A stretch of 64,000 bases of DNA, taken from IMG/VR virus record IMGVR_UViG_3300043570_001741, positions 93,714 through 157,713 of that record. One strand, given 5' to 3'. Below the pieces are notes generated by a model, which did no database searches, was not told where the DNA came from, and was given only the letters and a program-made list of their open reading frames with translations. The DNA is from a virus. Below are positions 2,227-58,940 of this stretch, in pieces (the stretch's first letter is position 1; each line of letters opens with the position of its first letter). Made by a program: the position numbers and the translations under genes.

Positions 2227-2493
2227 ATGTCAGATGGAATCTACATACTAAAGACGGCTGATGGTTTTCGTGTTACTTACTCAAAACGATATGATGATTT
2301 TGTGACAATTGAAGGCAAGTTGGTTGGTCTTTCGGTAAATGAATGTTTTGGTTCATGTGAACCTTTACGAACACAGGAAAATGCTATGGATGTGGCACAA
2401 CGGCTTGCGAGAAAATACCACGAAACCGATGATGGTATTTGTTTGATTGAAATAGGTAAAAAACAAACATTTGATGAAATTGTAGGAATTTAA
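2227..2493 (+). CDS. Small hypothetical phage protein (88 aa)
   Basis: I do not recognise this protein. I chose the ATG at 2227 over the upstream ATG at 2128 because the promoter -10 box (2199-2204) lies inside the longer version and a good AAGGA site sits 6 nt before 2227. It is a compact mixed alpha/beta protein without obvious motifs or membrane segments. One base separates it from the next gene, so both are probably co-transcribed. Confidence 0.65.
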   Translation: MSDGIYILKTADGFRVTYSKRYDDFVTIEGKLVGLSVNECFGSCEPLRTQENAMDVAQRLARKYHETDDGICLIEIGKKQTFDEIVGI

Positions 2494-2494
2494 A

Positions 2495-3547
2495 ATGGCT
2501 ACTAGACATTTAAAAATTGAAGAACCAAAATTTATTAATGAGATGACCACTATTCAATTAATGAATAGTTTAAATTGGTATCATCAGAATAAAGAATATA
2601 AAGAAGGTGTTAATTACATCCAAGATTATGCCAAGAAGCATAAAATTGAAGGCCGTGTTGATACCTCAAAAAGCATTTTAACATTAGCTTGGGCTTGCCG
2701 TCTTGTGATGAACGGAAATGATATTGGTGAAAAAGGTCGAAACTTTTTAAATGCCGAAATCAGAAATGTCATGCAAAAAGAAGTTGAAGAAGCATCGGTT
2801 AAAGTTGATACAACACCGACAGTTTCAATTCAGGAAAGATTGCGTGAAAAGGTTGCAGAAATTGCTGGTGACCTTGAAGGTGCTATTGACGATTATATTG
2901 AAAATGACTTTGCCCACCCAGCGTCACCTTTTGCTATTATGCAAGACAGAGCTAAAGGCGTTCATGCACAAAGGTTGATTGAGCAGTTTAAGAAACGCAG
3001 GATTGAATTTGATGAAGTGTTACACACCAAAGATGCTGAAATTAAAGAAGGTTATGGCAACTTTACTAAACCACAACTGAAGAAGATTGTGGCTTTGTGT
3101 GATGCTATCATTACTGATGCCATGAAGATTGCTGGTGAAGCCAAAGTTAATCGTAAACCACGTAAACGTAAACAAAAATCTGCCGATGAATTGGTGGCTA
3201 AGATGAATTACTGCCAAGAGTTTGCAGAATTGAAGTTAAAATCGGTTGCACCAAAAGAAGTCATTGGTGCGTTACAAGTTTGGGTATATAATACCAAGAC
3301 TAGAAAATTAGGTTGTTATCATGCAGAAGATGCTGGCGGCATTTCAGTCAAAGGGTCATCGCTGTTGAATTTCAATGAGACCAAATCGGTACAGAAGAAA
3401 CTCAGAAAACCAGAAGTTACTTTGCCTGAAGTATTGAAAGGTGGCAAAATTTATCTAAGAAGTGCAATAGATAACATTAAAGCTGTAGATTCAGCCTTGA
3501 CAGGACGTATCAATGGTGATACAATCTTGGTGCGCTGTATTAAATAA
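2495..3547 (+). CDS. Conserved T4-like phage hypothetical protein (350 aa)
   Basis: A largely helical, charged 350-residue protein. A very basic stretch near residues 215-235 (many Lys and Arg) suggests nucleic-acid contact. The C-terminal about 110 residues look like a small beta-rich domain. It is cytoplasmic by composition, with no signal peptide or membrane segment. Its position between a small early gene and a metallophosphoesterase suggests early or middle expression. I recall similar proteins in T4-like phages of marine bacteria but cannot assign a function. Confidence 0.75.
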   Translation: MATRHLKIEEPKFINEMTTIQLMNSLNWYHQNKEYKEGVNYIQDYAKKHKIEGRVDTSKSILTLAWACRLVMNGNDIGEKGRNFLNAEIRNVMQKEVEEASVKVDTTPTVSIQERLREKVAEIAGDLEGAIDDYIENDFAHPASPFAIMQDRAKGVHAQRLIEQFKKRRIEFDEVLHTKDAEIKEGYGNFTKPQLKKIVALCDAIITDAMKIAGEAKVNRKPRKRKQKSADELVAKMNYCQEFAELKLKSVAPKEVIGALQVWVYNTKTRKLGCYHAEDAGGISVKGSSLLNFNETKSVQKKLRKPEVTLPEVLKGGKIYLRSAIDNIKAVDSALTGRINGDTILVRCIK

Positions 3548-7925: not shown

Positions 7926-8488
7926 TGAAAAAAGAAGACTTGATGATTCCTGCCGAAGAAAAGATTAGTATCGGTTTATTGAACGCACACGTACATTTTC
8001 TCTCAGGCGAAATTAATGAGGAAACTGTAAAGAGTGCTATTCAATGGATTGTATATGAAAACTTGAATACGTCAAGTGATACTCCCCTCAGTTTGTATAT
8101 CAATTCAACTGGTGGTGATTTGAGTGAAGCTTTTGCACTTACAGATATAATGCGTAATTCAAATCGTGTTATCAGAACGTTTGGTTTGGGTTCAGTATGC
8201 TCAGCCGCCTTTTTAATCTTTGCTTCAGGAACTCAGGGGCATAGATATATCGCTAAGAATACCAGTATTATGTGTCACCAATATGCTTCTGAAATGAATG
8301 GTAAATACCATGACATGAAAGCCTATGTACGTGAAAGTGAGCTTGCTAATACCCGAATGAATAAGTTATTGCAAGAATGTACTGGTATGGATTCTAGAAG
8401 CGTTAAAACTAAACTTCTTCCACCAAGTGATGTTTGGTTTACCGCTGAAGAATTAGTAGAACTAAGTGTAGCAGACCAAATTTTTTAG
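7925..8488 (+). CDS. ClpP-like serine protease
   Basis: The 187 residues fit the ClpP fold. The likely triad is Ser93 (in VCSAAF), His118 (in MCHQY) and Asp169 (in PSDVWF), and YINSTGG at 58-64 forms the oxyanion-side loop. C-terminal TAEELVELSVADQI matches the usual ClpP ending. Phage ClpP-like proteins may act as independent proteases, as prohead proteases or by joining host Clp complexes. The start overlaps the epimerase stop by one base. No partner ATPase is encoded in the window. Confidence 0.85.
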   Translation: MKKEDLMIPAEEKISIGLLNAHVHFLSGEINEETVKSAIQWIVYENLNTSSDTPLSLYINSTGGDLSEAFALTDIMRNSNRVIRTFGLGSVCSAAFLIFASGTQGHRYIAKNTSIMCHQYASEMNGKYHDMKAYVRESELANTRMNKLLQECTGMDSRSVKTKLLPPSDVWFTAEELVELSVADQIF

Positions 8489-8505
8489 GAGAAGTGTTTT
8501 CTAGT

Positions 8506-8658
8506 ATGTTAAGCGGCGGTAAAAAGGTTGAAAAACCTCAAAGAACAAAATTTAGAAAGAATACGGATAATTTGAATCAGAAGAATTCGAATAAACCGAA
8601 ACACCATGACCGATCCTTTTATCGGTTAGTAAAAGAGGAAAAAGAATATGTCTTATAG
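8506..8658 (+). CDS. Small basic protein (50 aa)
   Basis: A short open frame with an AGGAGAAG site about 12 nt before the ATG. The product is very basic (many Lys, Arg, His), with no hydrophobic segment, so an RNA- or DNA-binding role is possible. A 6-bp hairpin (8609-8626) lies within it, and its last 11 bases overlap the next gene. I do not recognise it. Confidence 0.5.
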   Translation: MLSGGKKVEKPQRTKFRKNTDNLNQKNSNKPKHHDRSFYRLVKEEKEYVL

Positions 8659-44385: not shown

Positions 44386-44393
44386 TATAAATA
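44386..44393 (+). promoter_or_regulatory. T4 late promoter box, perfect TATAAATA, fibre operon
   Basis: A perfect match directly after the stop of the previous gene. A short leader with AAGGATA serves the ATG at 44415. It should drive the first block of fibre genes. Confidence 0.7.
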
Positions 44394-45601: not shown

Positions 45602-47605
45602 ATGTCATTAACTCCTAAATTATTGCAGCAAGGCGCAGCTGGTTCTGCTAGACCGGTTTATATTGAAGATGTGTTTAGTGCATTCCTTTATACAGGCAAT
45701 GGCACCACAAAAAATATTACCAATGGTATTGATTTGTCTACTAAGGGTGGATTGGTTTGGACAAAAAGCAGAAGTAATGCCCAAAACAACTATCTTGCCG
45801 ATACCGTCGCTTCCCAGTATTTGATTTCCAACACAACGTCTGGAAGTCAGGGTAGTGCTTTTCAAGGCTCAAATGACATTACCTCTGCCACAACAACTGG
45901 GTACACTCTTGGACCAAATTCAAGTACCGTAGTTAATAGTTCAGGGCAAACTCAGGTTTCATGGACATTCCGAAAGCAACGAAAGTTCTTTGATATTGTG
46001 ACTTATACGGGGAATGGCGCAACTTATCAGGATGTAACACATTCGCTTGGAAGCACTCCCGGTTGCATCATGGTTAAGTGCACGTCCACTGGTTCAACAA
46101 ATTGGATGGTGGTACATAGAAGCTTAGCAGTTGTAAATCAAAACCTGATTCTTAACTCAACTGCTAGTGCCTCAACTGTTAATTCTGAAACAATCACTTG
46201 GGGTTCAGTGGATGGGTCGTATAACGGATTTTTTAGGGTGTTAAATAGCCTTGGAAGTTCTGACCCAAACAACTATCTAAACGTTAACGGCAACACTTAT
46301 GTCGCCTACCTATTCGCCCACAACGCAGGAGGCTTTGGCCCGTCCGCTTCAGACAATGTGATTACGTGTGGGTCGTTTACAACAGACGGAAGCGGTAACT
46401 TTTCTGTGAACCTTGGTTATGAACCGCAATGGGTTCTTGCAAAAGCAACCAATGAGGCGGGTAGTGATTGGTATGTGTGGGACACCATGCGTGGATGGCC
46501 TGCTCGTAATAGTACAAGTGTCAATTATGTTAACAGTCGTTATTTGTCACCAAACACCAGCACGGCCGAAGCGGACTTTGGCGGCCCATACGTCACAAAC
46601 ACAGGGTTTGGTGGAGTATTGGTATCCAGTATCACCTACATCTACATAGCCATCCGCCGTGGCCCGATGAAAGTGCCTACGACTGGTACAAGTGTTTTTG
46701 TGGCAGAAACTTATAATGGAACCAACACGCTAAATAGAGAATTTGATGTATCTCCTTTACAGTATTCTGATTTATCTTGGTTTATTAGTAGAAACTACCC
46801 AACTGCACCAGTCAGTATAAGTTTTGTAGATAGATTGCGTGGATCACTTGCAAAGCTATGGACGGGAGGCACTAGCAATGAAAGCACTTCACAAGCATCT
46901 GTTAGTTTTTCAAATAAAATGGAAGCCATAGTAATTGGAACTACTGGCAATTTTTCAGGCTTAAATGAGACTGGTACTTCTTTTGTTATGTACAACTTAA
47001 AACGTGCTCCCGGCTTCTTTGATGAGGTTTGCTATACTGGAAATTACGCAGGGAACCCTCAAATCCCACATAATTTAACCGTAGCGCCAGAACTAATTAT
47101 TGCAAAAGTTAGAAGCACTACAGGCGCATGGTATATCAACAGTCCTTTAATTGGGACTAACTTTCAACTTGCTTTTAACGCAAGTGCAAAAAGTGCCGGA
47201 AGCACTTACACGCTTACATCAACGTATTTTCAAAATCCAGATATTAACTATCCTACGGGGGAGACATTTGTAGCCTACCTTTTTGCCACTTGCGCTGGTG
47301 TTTCCAAAGTTGGTTCATATACAGGTAATGGTTCATCACAAACTATCGATTGTGGCTTTGCTTCTGGTGCTAGGTTTGTTTTAATTAAACGTACAGACTC
47401 ATCAGGCGATTGGTATACATTTGATACTGCTCGAGGTATTGTTTCTGGAAACGATCCATTCTTAAAATTAAACACTACAGATGCTGAAGCAACAGCTTAT
47501 GATGCTGTTGATCCAGCTAACTCAGGTTTCATTGTCAACAACGATGCTACTAATTTCCCAATTAATGTAGCATCCGCCACATACATCTTTTTAGCAATCG
47601 CATAA
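45602..47605 (+). CDS. Large tail adhesin A, DUF7483-like repeats (667 aa)
   Basis: It starts with a short anchor (PVYIEDVFSAFLYTGNG) and then repeats a lectin-like unit several times: FFDIVTYTGNGATYQDVTHSLGS with PGCIMVK; FDEVCYTGNYAG with IPHNL; and VGSYTGNGSSQTIDCGF near the end. Such units fold as concanavalin-like sandwiches in phage adhesins, so binding host surface glycan is likely. The protein is clearly paralogous to the one at 48724-50709, and base composition rises in its middle compared with flanking genes. Confidence 0.75.
   Translation: MSLTPKLLQQGAAGSARPVYIEDVFSAFLYTGNGTTKNITNGIDLSTKGGLVWTKSRSNAQNNYLADTVASQYLISNTTSGSQGSAFQGSNDITSATTTGYTLGPNSSTVVNSSGQTQVSWTFRKQRKFFDIVTYTGNGATYQDVTHSLGSTPGCIMVKCTSTGSTNWMVVHRSLAVVNQNLILNSTASASTVNSETITWGSVDGSYNGFFRVLNSLGSSDPNNYLNVNGNTYVAYLFAHNAGGFGPSASDNVITCGSFTTDGSGNFSVNLGYEPQWVLAKATNEAGSDWYVWDTMRGWPARNSTSVNYVNSRYLSPNTSTAEADFGGPYVTNTGFGGVLVSSITYIYIAIRRGPMKVPTTGTSVFVAETYNGTNTLNREFDVSPLQYSDLSWFISRNYPTAPVSISFVDRLRGSLAKLWTGGTSNESTSQASVSFSNKMEAIVIGTTGNFSGLNETGTSFVMYNLKRAPGFFDEVCYTGNYAGNPQIPHNLTVAPELIIAKVRSTTGAWYINSPLIGTNFQLAFNASAKSAGSTYTLTSTYFQNPDINYPTGETFVAYLFATCAGVSKVGSYTGNGSSQTIDCGFASGARFVLIKRTDSSGDWYTFDTARGIVSGNDPFLKLNTTDAEATAYDAVDPANSGFIVNNDATNFPINVASATYIFLAIA
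46633..46694 (+). repeat. Near-identical DNA island shared by adhesins A and B
   Basis: About 62 bp here match 49743-49804 with only a few differences, including an uninterrupted GGCCCGATGAAAGTGCCTAC. It encodes the IYIAIRxGPMKVPTTGTSVF join between two lectin-like units. It is GC-richer than its surroundings and could act as a recombination handle for exchanging C-terminal halves. Confidence 0.7.
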
Positions 47606-48175: not shown

Positions 48176-48724
48176 ATGGCTTTAACTAGAGTTAGTGGTA
48201 ATTTAATTTCAAGTGGTACCTTAACTGCCACTCAATTAGCGGTAACTGGTGTTTCTGCTGGTAGTTATGGTGGTACTACTTCTATTCCTACAATTACTGT
48301 TGGAACTGATGGTCGTGTGAGTTATGCTTCAAACATAGCTTTAAGTCTGAACAGTATTACAGGTAATGTGAATATTAGCGGCAACGTTAAAGCACAGACA
48401 TATCAAGAAACATTCTCTAACGTTTCTATTGCATCTGGTAACATTACTTGCAACTTGGCTAGTGCAACAATTTTTAAAACTGTAGTGACCTCTGCGGCCA
48501 ATGTTATCTTTACTAGCCCACCACCTAGTCTGACAGGATTTAGTTTTTTAATTCAGTTGTCACAAACTGGAAGTTATGCACTTACATGGCCATCTAGTAT
48601 TCAATGGCCATCAAACACAGCACCAACACTATCCACAACTGCTGGTTATGTTGATACGATTGCTCTATACACTATTGATGGTGGAACAAACTACTACGCT
48701 ACTTCAGTTCTAGGACAATTTTAA
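48176..48724 (+). CDS. Short tail fibre protein (182 aa)
   Basis: It has SAGSYGGTTSIPTITVGTDGRVSYA, the same fibre unit as in the genes at 44735 and 56932, and NVNISGNVKAQTY shaft sequence. The C-terminal part (SFLIQLSQTGSYALTWPSSIQWP and ATSVLGQF) resembles the end of the protein at 44735. It precedes adhesin B by a TAATG overlap, as the 44735 gene precedes adhesin A, so each adhesin has its own connector. Confidence 0.7.
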   Translation: MALTRVSGNLISSGTLTATQLAVTGVSAGSYGGTTSIPTITVGTDGRVSYASNIALSLNSITGNVNISGNVKAQTYQETFSNVSIASGNITCNLASATIFKTVVTSAANVIFTSPPPSLTGFSFLIQLSQTGSYALTWPSSIQWPSNTAPTLSTTAGYVDTIALYTIDGGTNYYATSVLGQF

Positions 48725-50709
48725 TGAGTAAAGCTGCTTATAATGTTTATGCGGCCGGTGGTGCAGCAACGCCAACATATATTGAAGATGTGTTCAGCAC
48801 TTACCTATACACGGGCAATGGCGCTACACAGACCATTGTCAACGGGATCGATTTGTCTGGTAAAGGTGGGTTGGTTTGGCTGAAAAGCCGAGCCGGCGCG
48901 GATCCGCATGAGTTAACAAACACCGTACAGGGCGTTTCAAACTCACTGCGAACTAACAGCACTAATGGTTCGTCTTCTACAGATTTGACTGGTTTTACTT
49001 CTTCCGGCTTTACTCTTGGATACGTCACTGGAAACACCAACTTATCTGGAGCAACTGAAGTTTCATGGACCTTCCGCAAGCAACCAAAGTTCTTTGATAT
49101 TGTGACATGGACGGGAAACGGTACTACACAGAACTTGTCACATAACCTTGGCTCTGTACCGGGTATGATAATTGTAAAAAGAAGTGGTAACACGGGAGAT
49201 TGGAATGTTTGGCATAGAAGTTTAACAGCAGGAAACTACATAAAACTTAATAGTACGGCCGCACAAACCACAGGTGGCGCAGCTAACTATTTTGGAAATA
49301 ACTCTACCACAGTTAATCCAACAAGCACAACATTTACGGTTGGCAACAACTCACAAGTCAACGCTGATAGTGGAGAAGCCGGAAACACATATGTTGCCTA
49401 CCTATTTGCCCATAACGCAGGTGGCTTCGGTCTGACTGGCTCAGACAATGTGATTACGTGTGGGTCTTATACGGGCGGCACTTTTAATGGGGTTACATAC
49501 GATGCAGTAACCACGACTTTGGGGTTTGAGCCTCAATGGCTGCTTATTAAAGAAGCTACAGGCACTAACGCTTGGTTTATATTTGACAATATGCGTGGGA
49601 TTGTCACTGGCGGCAATGATCCGCGATTGAGCCCAAACAGTAGTAATCAAGAATTTAGCTCCAATTGGGTTGATTTAACATCAACAGGCTTTACCGCAAC
49701 AGCATCAGACGGATCAAGCGGAATCAATAACGGCAGCAGCTACACCTACATCTACATCGCCATCCGCTGTGGCCCGATGAAAGTGCCTACGACTGGGACT
49801 AGTGTGTTCAAAACTATTAGTAGAACAGGTACAGGCTCAGCAACTACAGTTACTGGAGTTGGCTTTCCACCAGATTTGGTAATCGCAAGAGCTAAAGCTA
49901 CGGCTGGATTAAATACTACATGGATGGCAAGACTTAGAGGTAGTGCTCAACTATACTCAAATTTTACTTCTTCAGGAGCTAGTAGTTCAACACAACAGAT
50001 AACCTCGTATGACATGGATGGAATAAGTGTAGGAACTGACGTAGCTCAATCTGGATTTAATAGTTCTGGTGATCCGGTTGTAAATTGGTTTCTTCGCCGA
50101 GCTCCAGGTTTCTTTAGTATTCTCACTTTTGTTGGAGACGCAACAACAAATAGGTCAATTAATCATAATTTGGGTGTAACACCAGAATTAATTATTACTA
50201 AGTCAAGTAACCAAACGGGCAATTGGCATGTTGGTATTGGGTTGCTTGGATGGACTTATGGTTTATATTTGGATACAACAAATGCAAGTAGTGTTCAAAA
50301 CTGGTATTCTACACCATCATCAATAGCTTATTCCACTGGTTCATCTACTACTGCAAATAGAAATAGTTACGAATATATTGTTTATCTTTTCGCCTCTTGT
50401 CCTGGTGTTTCCAAAGTAGGCTCATACACAGGTAATGGTTCAACACAAACAATTGATTGTGGCTTTGCAGCTGGTGCTAGGTTTGTTCTTATTAAGAGAA
50501 CCGATGACGTTGCTGATTGGTATGTCTGGGACACTGTTCGAGGTATTATTTCTGGAAATGATCCTTATCTTCTGATTAACAGTACAGTTGCTGAAGTAAC
50601 CAATACAGATTACATTGACCCATACAGCGCAGGGTTTGAATTATCCTCCACCGCACCAGCCGCCATTAATGCAAATGGCGGTACTTACATCTTCCTTGCA
50701 ATTGCATGA
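48724..50709 (+). CDS. Large tail adhesin B, paralog of adhesin A (661 aa)
   Basis: Same plan as adhesin A: PTYIEDVFSTYLYTGNG anchor, repeated lectin-like units (KFFDIVTWTGNGTTQNLSHNLGS, FFSILTFVGDATTNRSINHNLG, VGSYTGNGSTQTIDCGF) and the shared GPMKVPTTGTSVF joint. The variable middle segments differ, as expected for receptor-binding surfaces under diversifying selection. Start overlaps the connector gene. Confidence 0.75.
   Translation: MSKAAYNVYAAGGAATPTYIEDVFSTYLYTGNGATQTIVNGIDLSGKGGLVWLKSRAGADPHELTNTVQGVSNSLRTNSTNGSSSTDLTGFTSSGFTLGYVTGNTNLSGATEVSWTFRKQPKFFDIVTWTGNGTTQNLSHNLGSVPGMIIVKRSGNTGDWNVWHRSLTAGNYIKLNSTAAQTTGGAANYFGNNSTTVNPTSTTFTVGNNSQVNADSGEAGNTYVAYLFAHNAGGFGLTGSDNVITCGSYTGGTFNGVTYDAVTTTLGFEPQWLLIKEATGTNAWFIFDNMRGIVTGGNDPRLSPNSSNQEFSSNWVDLTSTGFTATASDGSSGINNGSSYTYIYIAIRCGPMKVPTTGTSVFKTISRTGTGSATTVTGVGFPPDLVIARAKATAGLNTTWMARLRGSAQLYSNFTSSGASSSTQQITSYDMDGISVGTDVAQSGFNSSGDPVVNWFLRRAPGFFSILTFVGDATTNRSINHNLGVTPELIITKSSNQTGNWHVGIGLLGWTYGLYLDTTNASSVQNWYSTPSSIAYSTGSSTTANRNSYEYIVYLFASCPGVSKVGSYTGNGSTQTIDCGFAAGARFVLIKRTDDVADWYVWDTVRGIISGNDPYLLINSTVAEVTNTDYIDPYSAGFELSSTAPAAINANGGTYIFLAIA
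49743..49804 (+). repeat. Copy of the DNA island shared with adhesin A
   Basis: Matches 46633-46694 with a few changes; see that entry for the interpretation as a recombination handle. Confidence 0.7.
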
Positions 50710-54903: not shown

Positions 54904-54932
54904 TTGACTTCTTTTACAACATCATATATAAT
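54904..54932 (+). promoter_or_regulatory. Sigma-70-like promoter, TTGACT-17-TATAAT, inside late region
   Basis: TTGACT at 54904-54909 and a perfect TATAAT at 54927-54932 with a 17-bp spacer. It starts transcription near 54939 and a ribosome site AAGGA at 54955-54959 serves the ATG at 54966. This host-type promoter in a fibre region suggests early expression of the next genes. Confidence 0.75.
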
Positions 54933-54965
54933 AGAATACACTATGTTTATATTAAGGAAAAATAA

Positions 54966-55808
54966 ATGAATGATTTGATTATTAAAAATATTAATACCGC
55001 ACTTGCAACTACCAGTAAACCTGAGTATGGGGTAATGTTGCAGAATATTGATGCGAGAATGCCGGCAATTGTCAGAGACACAAGCAACTTCCACAAGTCT
55101 CACAGCCAGTTCATGTCGGTAACACTAGACGTAACGGCAATCACACCAATACGTTCTATCAAGCACACATTGGCTGAGATTGATAGAACAAAATCGGCAT
55201 TACAAGAAGCTTATATTGGTCTACGTAAAAAACAGATTGAGCTAAAGCGCAAGACTGTCGAACTTGCAGCTGCTACCGATCCTCTAGATATAGAGTTACT
55301 TGAAGTAGAAATTCTGGAAATTAATGGCCATTTAGAAGGCACGCAAAACCATGTCAATGGTGCTTTACGTAAAATGAATTTCATGGTCAACCAACATGCA
55401 CAATTGCTAGAGAAGGTTGGTAAGAATGAAATTACTGAAGAAGACTATGAACTAGAAGAATCTAAGTATCACATTATGACTTGTATGAAGCAAGCTCTCA
55501 ATGCTGCTCGTAGTCGCAATGGTATGATTGATGAAGGTAATTTGATTTACTTGTTTGACTTAGGTATCAATGCTGCACAAGCACAGGCTGAAGTTTTTGC
55601 ATATTTAAATATGGAGAATGAATTAATTTCCAATGGTCAGGCTCCAACTCATGAGATGACTGTTCGCTGGTTAGAGGCATGTGCAAATAAATGGGCAGAA
55701 GATCCTGCTAAATTTGCTGGCCGCAGAGGCTTTTCTGTATTTGATAAATCTTCTCTTACTAATGTGCCTTTGTTGGAAGAATCTTCTACAGCACCAGAGG
55801 AAAAATAA
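54966..55808 (+). CDS. Conserved coiled-coil phage protein (280 aa)
   Basis: Residues about 65-115 are a strong charged coiled coil (LAEIDRTKSALQEAYIGLRK). The rest is mainly helical, with NHVNGALRKMNFMVNQH in the middle and a disordered acidic end. I recall such proteins in marine T4-like phages as non-structural or of unknown role. Expression from a sigma-70-like promoter argues against a tail role. TAATG overlap with the glycosyltransferase. Confidence 0.65.
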   Translation: MNDLIIKNINTALATTSKPEYGVMLQNIDARMPAIVRDTSNFHKSHSQFMSVTLDVTAITPIRSIKHTLAEIDRTKSALQEAYIGLRKKQIELKRKTVELAAATDPLDIELLEVEILEINGHLEGTQNHVNGALRKMNFMVNQHAQLLEKVGKNEITEEDYELEESKYHIMTCMKQALNAARSRNGMIDEGNLIYLFDLGINAAQAQAEVFAYLNMENELISNGQAPTHEMTVRWLEACANKWAEDPAKFAGRRGFSVFDKSSLTNVPLLEESSTAPEEK

Positions 55809-56542
55809 TGCATCTGGTCGTTGGTACTCCTTGTTATGGCGGAATGATGTGTACAGAGTACACACAATCCATTCTTGATTTAAAAGAAGCATGTCTAACT
55901 AATAATATTAAACTTACTTGTATCTTTCTTGGTAATGAAAGTTTAATACAGCGAGGTAGAAATACCATTGCTCATCACTTTATGAATATGCAAGATGCTT
56001 CTCATCTTATGTTTATCGATGCGGATCAAAAATTTTTAGCAAATGACATTGCTTTGATGATAAAAGCGGACAAAGGTATTATTGGTGGACCTGTTCCTAT
56101 GAAAGGAATAAATTGGGAAAGAGTGCGACAAGGTGCTGTTCTAAATCATCCAAATCTTTCATCTCTTTCAGGTATATTTAATATAAATAAATTAAAGGAC
56201 CATGAAATGATTGCTCCTAATTTACCCTTTCAGGTTAAACATATAGGCACAGGGTTTATGCTTATTCGCAAAGATGTGTTTGAGAAAATCAAACCACATG
56301 TTGGTTGGTATACTAATGCAGGTAATACTATTAATGCGAATGAAAAAATTTATGATTATTTCAAAGTTCAGAATGTAAATAACGAATTACTATCTGAGGA
56401 TTACAATTTCTGCCACATGTACCGTGAACATGGAGGAACAATCTGGGCTGCTCCTTGGTGCGTTCTCGGTCATTTTGGCTCTTATCTTTTTTCAGGGCAA
56501 TATGCTCAACAAGGAGTTTTAAATGGCACACCATTGCATTAA
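55808..56542 (+). CDS. GT-A type glycosyltransferase-like protein (244 aa)
   Basis: The start HLVVGTPCYGGMMC, an RGRNTIAHHF segment at 49-58, and a DxD motif D71-A-D73 (FIDADQKF) mark a GT-A glycosyltransferase. Near the C-terminus SEDYNFCHMYREHGG holds the probable catalytic acid. Enzymes of this type occur in phages, where they may glycosylate virion proteins, DNA or host glycans. The gene overlaps the coiled-coil gene and the next small gene, so expression is coupled. Confidence 0.8.
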   Translation: MHLVVGTPCYGGMMCTEYTQSILDLKEACLTNNIKLTCIFLGNESLIQRGRNTIAHHFMNMQDASHLMFIDADQKFLANDIALMIKADKGIIGGPVPMKGINWERVRQGAVLNHPNLSSLSGIFNINKLKDHEMIAPNLPFQVKHIGTGFMLIRKDVFEKIKPHVGWYTNAGNTINANEKIYDYFKVQNVNNELLSEDYNFCHMYREHGGTIWAAPWCVLGHFGSYLFSGQYAQQGVLNGTPLH

Positions 56543-56867
56543 ATATCGTCTAACCGCTGAAGGTACAGTCCCAACATTTCTTTGCCTACATCCTGAGGGT
56601 GTTGGTGGTGTATATGTAGTTGGTGATCCTTCAACACCAAGTCCTCGTGATATGGTTATGATTGGTCTATCAGAAAATGATGATGTAGGAGACGCTGAAA
56701 TTATTCCTACAAAAGCTGACCTGTTAACTTATTTGACCGATGTAGGTGCAAATTGGACTCAACCAGATCCAACACAACCTGGTGACCCACAAGCAACTAT
56801 TCCTTTTGATCCTTCTGCTGCGGCTGATTGGGTCTGGGCACGAAAAACAGCTCTTGATGCAAGCTAG
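56523..56867 (+). CDS. Small hypothetical protein (114 aa)
   Basis: The start lies in the 3' end of the glycosyltransferase gene after AAGGAG. The N-terminal half is beta-rich (VPTFLCLHPEGVGGVYVVGD); the C-terminal half is Pro/Asp-rich. No family recognised. It could be a fibre accessory or an early protein, since it follows genes served by the sigma-70-like promoter. Confidence 0.6.
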   Translation: MAHHCIKYRLTAEGTVPTFLCLHPEGVGGVYVVGDPSTPSPRDMVMIGLSENDDVGDAEIIPTKADLLTYLTDVGANWTQPDPTQPGDPQATIPFDPSAAADWVWARKTALDAS

Positions 56868-56868
56868 T

Positions 56869-56902
56869 GTTAATGTAGAAAGCATCCTATATTAACTAAA
56901 TA
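56869..56902 (+). promoter_or_regulatory. Hairpin next to late box ACTAAATA
   Basis: A 10-bp stem with one G-U pair (56869-56878 with 56887-56896, 8-base loop) is followed at 56895-56902 by ACTAAATA. The hairpin would exist only in read-through RNA and be absent from late-initiated RNA. No clear ribosome site stands before the ATG at 56932. Confidence 0.4.
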
Positions 56903-56931: not shown

Positions 56932-58296
56932 ATGCCAATCTCAAGAATTACAGCTAATAGTATTACAGCAAACACGATTACATCTGCAGCTCTGGCCAAC
57001 ACTGGCGTAACATCCGGTGTTTATGGTGGTGCTGGTGCTATTCCAATTATCACAGTCGATTCTGTTGGTAGACTGACAAGTGCAGCTAATGTTGCAATTA
57101 GCGGCAGTAGTGTAAAATTATCTTCACGTTCATCTAATACAATATTAGGTGTAAATGATAACTCTTATGTAATTAACCTCAGTAGTACATTTACACAAAC
57201 ATTCACCGCTGCAGCAACTTTAGGTGACGGTTGGTTCTGTTACCTAAAGAATGGTGGTTCAGGTGACATTACACTTGATCCAAACGCAAGCGAAACGATT
57301 GATGGCTTAACAAGTTTTGTAATGTATCCTGGCGAAGTTCGATTGGTTCAATGTACAGGAACAGCATTTACTTCTATAGTTTTAGATACGTTTAAAAAAA
57401 CAATAACTTCAACAGGAGCATTTATTACTCCACCTGGTTACACACAATTGTCTTTAAGAATGTGGGGTGGCGGTGGAGGTGGTGGAGGTGGTAGAGGCGC
57501 AGGTGCACCCGGTCGTTACTCAGGTGCCGGTGGCGCTGGCGGTGGCCAACATATTGCAACTTTTGAAAGTACAGCAGGAACATCCACTACAGTAACTATT
57601 GGTGCCGGCGGCACAGCTGGAGCAGGTGGCCTATCTTCTTCTTCTGATGGTACAGCTGGTGGAGATACTTCTTTTGGCACACAGTTCTATGCTTATGGTG
57701 GTTATTTTGGCCACACCGCAAGCTCAGGCGCTTCTGGCCTAAGCGGCGGCGGCGGAGGTATATTGAGTGCTGGTACTTCAACCACTGGTGGTAATCCTAA
57801 AATGCCTGGTTCCAGTACTACTGGTGTTATTGTTTATGGTGATAGAGGCACAAGTGAAAATTTTTGTATGAATTTTGGATTTGGCGGTGGTGCTCCTAGT
57901 TCCGGAAATCTAGGCTATACTGAATATGGTGGGTCAGCTGGTGGTAGCAATTCTTCTAGAGGATCGAATAGTATATTTGGTGCTACAGGTGGGGGTTCAG
58001 GAGAACAAATGGATGGGTCTGGTAACCCCGGCAACGGCGGTGTAGGTTTCCAAGGCGGTGGCATTGGTTACACAACAGCTTACACTAATGGAGCTTTGCA
58101 CAGCACTAACGGTGTAGTATTAAGTAGTGGCAGTGGAGGCGGTGGCGGCGGAGGTGCTTCTGGTGGTGTAAGTGGCGGTTCTGGCGCAACTCCAGGTGGA
58201 GGTGGCGGAGGAGGCGGTGCAAACTTTGGCGGTGGTAATGGCGGTTCTGGCGGTGCTGGTGGAAACGGACTTTGTATTATTTGGGGGATTGTATAA
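56932..58296 (+). CDS. Tail fibre with Gly-rich adhesin domain (454 aa)
   Basis: Residues about 20-60 contain the fibre unit SGVYGGAGAIPIITVDSVGRLTSA shared with genes 44735 and 48176. A beta domain follows to about 165. The rest is dominated by runs of Gly (GGGGGGGGG near residues 180-190 and again near 400-430) broken by short variable loops. This is the layout of polyglycine-helix adhesins such as gp38 of T-even phages, where loops touch the receptor. It is thus a likely receptor-binding protein. Confidence 0.75.
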   Translation: MPISRITANSITANTITSAALANTGVTSGVYGGAGAIPIITVDSVGRLTSAANVAISGSSVKLSSRSSNTILGVNDNSYVINLSSTFTQTFTAAATLGDGWFCYLKNGGSGDITLDPNASETIDGLTSFVMYPGEVRLVQCTGTAFTSIVLDTFKKTITSTGAFITPPGYTQLSLRMWGGGGGGGGGRGAGAPGRYSGAGGAGGGQHIATFESTAGTSTTVTIGAGGTAGAGGLSSSSDGTAGGDTSFGTQFYAYGGYFGHTASSGASGLSGGGGGILSAGTSTTGGNPKMPGSSTTGVIVYGDRGTSENFCMNFGFGGGAPSSGNLGYTEYGGSAGGSNSSRGSNSIFGATGGGSGEQMDGSGNPGNGGVGFQGGGIGYTTAYTNGALHSTNGVVLSSGSGGGGGGGASGGVSGGSGATPGGGGGGGGANFGGGNGGSGGAGGNGLCIIWGIV

Positions 58297-58550
58297 TGAG
58301 AGCTTTAGTAATCAAAAATGGAATTGTTGTTAATGCTATTTTGGTAGAATCATTAGATGTTTTACCAAACTTAATAACAGACACAGACAGTCAAGGTAAA
58401 GTTGGAAACATTGGTGATTCATGGAATGGAAATACATTCACAACACCTGAACCAGTTGTACCTGAACCTGTTGTTACACCAACACCAACAAAAGAAGAAT
58501 TGTTGGCTCAACTTCAAGCACTTACTGCTAAAATCGAAGCATTAGAATAA
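58296..58550 (+). CDS. Small fibre-associated protein (84 aa)
   Basis: The ATG at 58296 overlaps the adhesin stop; a frame from 58272 would overlap more. A beta-rich first half (RALVIKNGIVVNAILVE, DSWNGNTF) is followed by a Pro/Val-rich link and a C-terminal helix with Leu/Ala heptads. The layout fits a fibre assembly chaperone or cap for the adjacent adhesin. Confidence 0.65.
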   Translation: MRALVIKNGIVVNAILVESLDVLPNLITDTDSQGKVGNIGDSWNGNTFTTPEPVVPEPVVTPTPTKEELLAQLQALTAKIEALE

Positions 58551-58560
58551 CACAGTTCCA

Positions 58561-58600
58561 AACTCCCAGTTTGACTAAATAGGTAATTAAATTGGGAGTT
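58561..58600 (+). promoter_or_regulatory. Hairpin hiding the ribosome site, with late box in its loop
   Basis: A 14-bp stem with two G-U pairs joins 58561-58574 to 58587-58600 around a 12-base loop. The late box ACTAAATA is at 58574-58581 and the Shine-Dalgarno GGGAG at 58594-58598 lies in the right arm. Read-through RNA would hide the site; RNA starting about 58587 lacks the left arm and leaves it free. T4 gene e and some others use this design. Confidence 0.65.
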
Positions 58601-58604
58601 AATT

Positions 58605-58940
58605 TTGGCCGCTTATTCCGAGATAACGATTGAACAATACGCATCTTTTTCCTCTACAATCAATGTAGAAGATACTGCTGGCGATGCTATTAATCTATAT
58701 GGTTATAGCGCATCATCACAACTGCGTAAATCGTTCTATTCAACAACAGCAACTAACTTCACCGCTTCTGTCACAGGCACAGCAAACGGTGAAGTAACTA
58801 TTTCCATGACCTCGGCTAACACAGCCAACTTAACTCCTGGTCGTTATATGTACGATGTTATTATTACTTCTCCACAATCTGTGACAACCAGAGTAGTTGA
58901 AGGAATTGTGGTAGTAGCACCTGGAGTAACACGCATATAA
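58605..58940 (+). CDS. Conserved virion protein, TTG start (111 aa)
   Basis: The start is TTG at 58605, six nt after GGGAG, as no ATG fits. The sequence (YSEITIEQYASFSSTINVED, then TANLTPGRYMYDVIIT and VEGIVVVAPGVTR) is a family I recall as structural in T4-like marine phages. It appears to be an Ig-like beta sandwich. Its translation is probably controlled by the hairpin just upstream. Confidence 0.75.
   Translation: MAAYSEITIEQYASFSSTINVEDTAGDAINLYGYSASSQLRKSFYSTTATNFTASVTGTANGEVTISMTSANTANLTPGRYMYDVIITSPQSVTTRVVEGIVVVAPGVTRI

Follow-up and report, generated by a model that had tools for sequence, protein, structure and literature searches.

A hairpin with a built-in late-promoter box buries the Shine-Dalgarno sequence of a tail-fibre assembly gene in uncultured T4-like phages

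In a virus genome we find a 14-pair RNA hairpin that contains the Shine-Dalgarno sequence of a gene of the 'L-shaped tail fiber protein assembly' family, that carries a late-promoter box at the end of its left arm and in its loop, and that is conserved with compensatory changes in a clade of related phages. The DNA analysed, referred to here as the window, comprises 64,000 nucleotides (93714-157713 in a virus record of 157.7 kb); the features described between 54904 and 58940 are on the + strand. In our opinion it is highly probable that the hairpin locks translation and contains the late promoter that releases it, as in T4 e, soc and I-TevI.

Anatomy of the hairpin and the gene behind it

The 5' arm AACTCCCAGTTTGA (58561-58574), an anti-Shine-Dalgarno sequence predicted to be absent from late-promoter RNA, pairs with the 3' arm TTAAATTGGGAGTT (58587-58600) across a 12-nt loop, CTAAATAGGTAA (58575-58586). 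The stem consists of 14 consecutive pairs, two of which are G-U. The late-promoter box ACTAAATA (58574-58581) starts on the final base of the 5' arm, then runs into the loop, while the Shine-Dalgarno sequence GGGAG (58595-58599) is buried in the 3' arm and is separated by a 5-nt gap from the TTG start at 58605. An initial annotation, made from the sequence alone, had described just these elements (a 14-bp stem with the box across its left-arm end and loop and with GGGAG on the right, followed by the TTG start), and all of them are where it placed them. It had also proposed to fold 58540-58630; this segment indeed forms a stable stem at -21.6 kcal/mol (z -2.92), with 2 of 200 shuffles equally good.

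The hairpin exceeds chance expectation. Shuffling the 34-nt flank to the left of the box gave at least 14 pairs in 11 of 20,000 trials, and putting random window segments in its place did so in 28 of 20,000. On both strands of the 157.7-kb contig there are about seven stems of at least 14 pairs with a loop of at most 20 nt, and the one at 58561-58600 is the sole such stem containing a TAAATA box. A search of Rfam gave no match of the hairpin to any described RNA family.

The controlled gene (58605-58940, 111 aa) matches PHROG 3304 ('L-shaped tail fiber protein assembly') and PHROG 1084 with E values of 1.4e-25 and 5.8e-24. Its cultured relatives, at less than 60% identity, are found in T4-like phages of Synechococcus, Prochlorococcus, Methylophilales and Pelagibacter, and the nearest relative of the gp6-like baseplate protein is that of Methylophilales phage Melnitz. 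The phage is related to T4, and the phages bearing the hairpin are uncultured T4-like phages related to Kyanoviridae. No relatives were found in bacterial genome contigs, and cultured phages gave no DNA-level match to the region. A search for the hairpin in cultured phages returned chance matches only; the leaders of the cultured homologues (DSL-LC02, Melnitz-1, HTVC008M, Bellamy and AG-345-L05) have no such hairpin.

The TTG start is backed by homologues, which have ATG at the same site (L039 and L040) or, in others, GTG or TTG. The first codons of the family vary: among 66 distinct homologues (for example L060, L061, L063, L065, L066, L081, L082, L098, L105, L111 and L115) there are 15 with ATG, 18 with GTG, 16 with TTG and 17 with ATC, ATA or ATT. 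In these 17 the codon corresponds to the conserved first residue, it is preceded at a distance of about 7 nt by a Shine-Dalgarno-like purine run and at 15-39 nt by a stop in frame, and a usable alternative start often does not occur before residue 40 or 66. Initiation of the AUU class, at AUC, AUA or AUU codons, thus appears to be conserved, and gene finders would miss it.

Conservation and covariation in relatives

Homologues and their leaders were collected from viral contigs, the relatives being metagenomic. Of 66 distinct leaders, hairpin-bearing and hairpin-less alike, 56 have the box. The hairpin itself is limited to one clade, where it occurs in 24 of 25 rows (the weaker stem of L087 is counted as a hairpin, and L065 has none). 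Its presence requires two changes on the tree, and the branch leading to the clade has a support of 86 and is not starred; on this tree the hairpin arose once. In a pattern scan of 2.9 million viral contigs every paired hairpin found stood before a gene of the 'L-shaped tail fiber protein assembly' family.

The arms differ within the clade: those of the window are CCCAGTTTGA / TTAAATTGGG, and those of L058, L078 and others are CCCGTTTTA / TAAAACGGG. The two arms vary in concert. Pair 8 occurs as A-U, G-C or G-U, pair 9 as G-U, U-A or A-U, and the compensatory changes include A-U to G-C and G-U to U-A; changes on both sides are confined to these two pairs and to one clade. In an alignment of fifteen hairpin variants, pairing holds in 87.6% of cells, versus 31-57% with slid partners. 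The covariation score lies above that of all 500 shuffles, which, because the sequences are related, is by itself not a proof of pairing. Chimeric hairpins combining different arms reach -11.0 and -12.2 kcal/mol versus -16.2 and -16.3 for the native ones, a loss of 4-5 kcal/mol, and it is the slid controls together with these chimeras that support pairing. The initial annotation had asked for covariation of the stem in relatives, which pairs 8 and 9 display, and had stated that its idea should be given up if close relatives had lost the stem while keeping the gene; with the stem retained in 24 of 25 rows of the clade, this check did not refute it.

Late transcription and the predicted exposure of the Shine-Dalgarno sequence

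The phage encodes a late sigma factor of the gp55 type (PHROG 234, E 5e-62) and a gp45 clamp (E 7e-68), and therefore late transcription of the T4 type is to be expected. The motif [AC]TAAATA has no overall over-representation in the window but is enriched in non-coding DNA, where 9 of 20 hits fall in 6% of the window (p ~1e-6). The ACTAAATA form occurs three times, each time between genes; another of these copies (56895-56902), which has no hairpin, precedes the Gly-rich fibre gene at 56932-58296. Several late-type boxes of the window end 2-7 nt before an ATG (29454, 31140, 36108 and 50732 on the + strand, 24699 on the - strand), as do boxes in L092-L094. For these, the T4 spacing would put the RNA start at or inside the start codon, so they represent either leaderless late messages or boxes that do not serve that gene.

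At T4 late promoters RNA begins 6 nt past the box. With this spacing the predicted late start at the hairpin is 58587, the first base of the 3' arm; hence the late RNA would carry the Shine-Dalgarno sequence and none of the 5' arm. The proposed switch would work as follows. RNA entering from upstream would have both arms, GGGAG would be locked in the stem, and ribosomes would be unable to start the tail-fibre gene. Late polymerase with the gp55-type factor would use the ACTAAATA box and produce RNA from about 58587, and this RNA, having no 5' arm, would leave the Shine-Dalgarno sequence exposed. The gene product would then be made only from the gene's own late RNA, whatever the transcription of the upstream cassette.

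Calculated opening costs agree with this scheme. For the window, opening GGGAG costs 11.7 kcal/mol in read-through RNA versus 2.8 in late RNA, and the read-through value stays within 10.1-12.2 kcal/mol across all lengths folded. The mean for 19 hairpin leaders is 10.5 in read-through versus 2.8 in late RNA, and for 23 hairpin-less leaders 3.0 versus 2.4. In L087, L125 and L126 longer folds show little or no calculated masking, and these predicted folds speak against a universal role of the hairpin in the clade.

The initial annotation had concluded that a timing switch as in T4 controls this gene. We find the claim partly supported: as regards mechanism it gains from the conserved stem, the register of the predicted start, the gap in calculated exposure and the presence of gp55 and gp45, and timing is one possible purpose. 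The sequences establish the structure, its conservation with compensatory changes, the box and the genes for gp55 and gp45, and folding gives the calculated difference in exposure; we infer the use of the promoter, the position of the RNA start, the repression of translation and the purpose of the arrangement.

Upstream transcription, the module border and other explanations

Where could read-through RNA come from? An early (sigma-70) type promoter, TTGACT-17-TATAAT, at 54904-54932 is a possible source. It is the only intergenic match of at least 11/12 on the + strand of the late region, it lies 3.6 kb from the hairpin, and no intrinsic terminators were detected between it and 58560. Strong sigma-70-type promoters of the form TTGACA-N16/17-TATAAT are common on the + strand in the early part of the genome. 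Two other hairpin loci, L124 and L126, have perfect 12/12 early-type promoters upstream and no terminators; L125 and L126 have early-type promoters upstream despite their weak or absent calculated masking. In the remaining hairpin loci no upstream early-type promoter was found in the DNA available. An early promoter within 2 kb occurs in 1 of 17 hairpin versus 1 of 39 hairpin-less box leaders, which is not a significant difference. For the gene at 58605, the promoter 3.6 kb upstream makes it plausible that early transcripts would read across it. This promoter is followed by three genes of unknown function (PHROG 1409- and 1574-like), and together (54904-56867) they look like an early unit lodged among the late tail genes.

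Terminators of the intrinsic type are found just upstream of 3 of 17 hairpin versus 24 of 39 hairpin-less box leaders (Fisher p 0.003), a comparison that is not phylogenetically independent because the hairpin arose once and follows clade structure; the tree offers few independent pairs for contrasting hairpin with terminator. The distribution suggests that hairpin and terminator are two ways to shield the gene from upstream transcription. Where a terminator stands directly upstream of the hairpin, as in L048, L050 and L051, the lock should be partly redundant. Altogether the gene has three natural leader types: hairpin plus late promoter, terminator plus late promoter, and neither.

The cassette immediately upstream (56932-58550) consists of the Gly-rich fibre gene and a small ORF, whose stop lies 10 nt before the stem, and it is exchanged between relatives. 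In close relatives (L005, L006, L008 and L012) the upstream genes differ, and it is at the left edge of the hairpin (58549-58560) that homology is regained. Given that the hairpin-promoter marks a module border, a reading as insulation gains weight. In L017 and L018 the left arm and box stand before a different gene and the right arm is missing. L018 further contains a stretch of about 700 nt in two copies with 80% identity (2388-3080 and 7960-8651), comprising a conserved enzyme-like gene, a small gene and the left arm plus box; the copies precede two different tail modules and end just past CTAAATAG, and the late box acts there as a recombination border. Elsewhere in the window there are two tail-fibre paralogues with DUF7483, of about 660 aa (45602-47605 and 48724-50709). 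A small tail-fibre gene stands before each of them, and late boxes lie at 44387, 47602, 50709 and 50732.

These observations bear on what the hairpin is for. Shielding the gene against late read-through from the variable cassettes upstream is just as possible a role. If this were the main one, the mechanism would be the same and the purpose would be to fix the dose of the product and not its timing. We regard this as quite possible, though short of probable: homology resumes at the hairpin edge while the upstream genes differ, the cassette just upstream is driven by the late box at 56895, relatives have a terminator at the same place, and weak start codons are frequent in homologues, as if output were held low; yet an early-type promoter is also present upstream, and with it timing is still possible. 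A more distant proposal is that the inverted repeat is a DNA element, a cruciform or recombination target for the exchange of tail-fibre modules, and that the RNA structure is incidental. The coincidence of module borders with the hairpin, the L018 repeat that stops just past the box, and the left arm and box before another gene in L017 and L018 are in line with it. However, the exchange in L018 ends at the box with no right arm present, so a full hairpin is unnecessary for it; a DNA target needs neither pairing kept against the Shine-Dalgarno sequence nor a place beside one gene family; and the common G-U pairs of the stem fit RNA better than DNA pairing. We consider it unlikely.

Could the structure be an intrinsic terminator of the upstream unit that masks the Shine-Dalgarno sequence by accident? 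Its location 10 nt past the upstream stop codon, its G+C-rich stem base and the fact that it takes the place of a terminator in the hairpin clade would suit this. But the stem is followed by no T run (TTAATTTT in the window, TCAAAC in L041, TAAAC in L043), terminator-like scans do not list the hairpin, and in L048-L052 a real terminator is present upstream, apart from the hairpin. We rejected an intrinsic terminator for the missing T run and the silence of the scans, and the proposal as a whole strikes us as very unlikely. That a conserved promoter flank and a conserved Shine-Dalgarno sequence merely happen to be complementary, with no function, is hardly credible. It is true that TTTGACTAAATAG is conserved in hairpin-less homologues too and that just 4-5 of the 14 pairs are G-C, but such a view has to face the shuffling result (11 in 20,000), the compensatory changes and the retention of the stem in 24 of 25 members of the clade.

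The best explanation, in our opinion, is a switch of the T4 gene-e/I-TevI type that doubles as insulation against the variable cassettes upstream; sequence and evolution support it well. More speculatively, the hairpin-promoter could be a portable insulator at a hypervariable tail-fibre border: adhesin cassettes would be swapped upstream while the assembly gene downstream continued to be expressed late and at a low level of its own, the device would alternate within the family with a terminator plus promoter, and weak GUG, UUG, AUC, AUA and AUU starts would hold output down further. We offer this only tentatively. The three leader types do represent a natural experiment on how genes beside exchangeable adhesin modules are insulated.

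Relation to known systems

The hairpin/late-promoter mechanism is established in T4 (PMC3014915, PMC2988022), and the precedent of gene e that the initial annotation named is borne out by these papers. In gene e a late promoter lies in the DNA encoding the 5' strand of the stem that masks the Shine-Dalgarno sequence, and the late RNA, which is without this strand, is translated (PMC3014915). The arrangement predicted here is the same, except that gene e has two late boxes of the TATAAATA type and here there is a single ACTAAATA box; moreover gene e encodes lysozyme and our gene a tail-fibre assembly protein, and the sequences are unrelated. The A/G-C form of the box at -13/-12 is reported for late promoters of phage Aeh1 (PMC2988020). 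I-TevI, I-TevII, I-TevIII, segB and Aeh1 mobE likewise have a hairpin that sequesters the ribosome-binding site on early or middle RNA and is relieved by a late promoter (PMC2988022). Those hairpins control mobile homing endonucleases, whereas the gene here is virion-related.

Two other kinds of structure deserve comparison. The PeSL cassettes of T4-like phages are reported to pair a terminator with an early promoter (PMC4503421). They share with our case a stem-loop and promoter at the border of an exchanged module, but the stem here has a late promoter and no terminator tail, and it hides a Shine-Dalgarno sequence; for lack of a T run after the stem and given the late-type promoter, we do not count it as a PeSL. 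In the split initiation regions of T4 genes 25 and 38, RNA structure also occurs at the starts of tail and tail-fibre genes. There, however, it lies between the Shine-Dalgarno sequence and the start and aids initiation (PMC3014915), while here the Shine-Dalgarno sequence is inside the stem.

A literature search of incomplete coverage returned no paper describing such a hairpin for the 'L-shaped tail fiber protein assembly' gene. The anatomy is shared with T4 e, soc, 49, I-TevI and Aeh1 mobE (PMC3014915, PMC2988022), and several attributes of a T4-type switch are found together: a stable stem containing the Shine-Dalgarno sequence, a predicted late start past the 5' arm, gp55 and gp45, and compensatory changes in the stem. 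The mechanism is known from T4, the gene and the phage group appear to be new cases of it, and the timing trick of T4 would be extended to a tail-fibre gene with natural compensatory changes as evidence.
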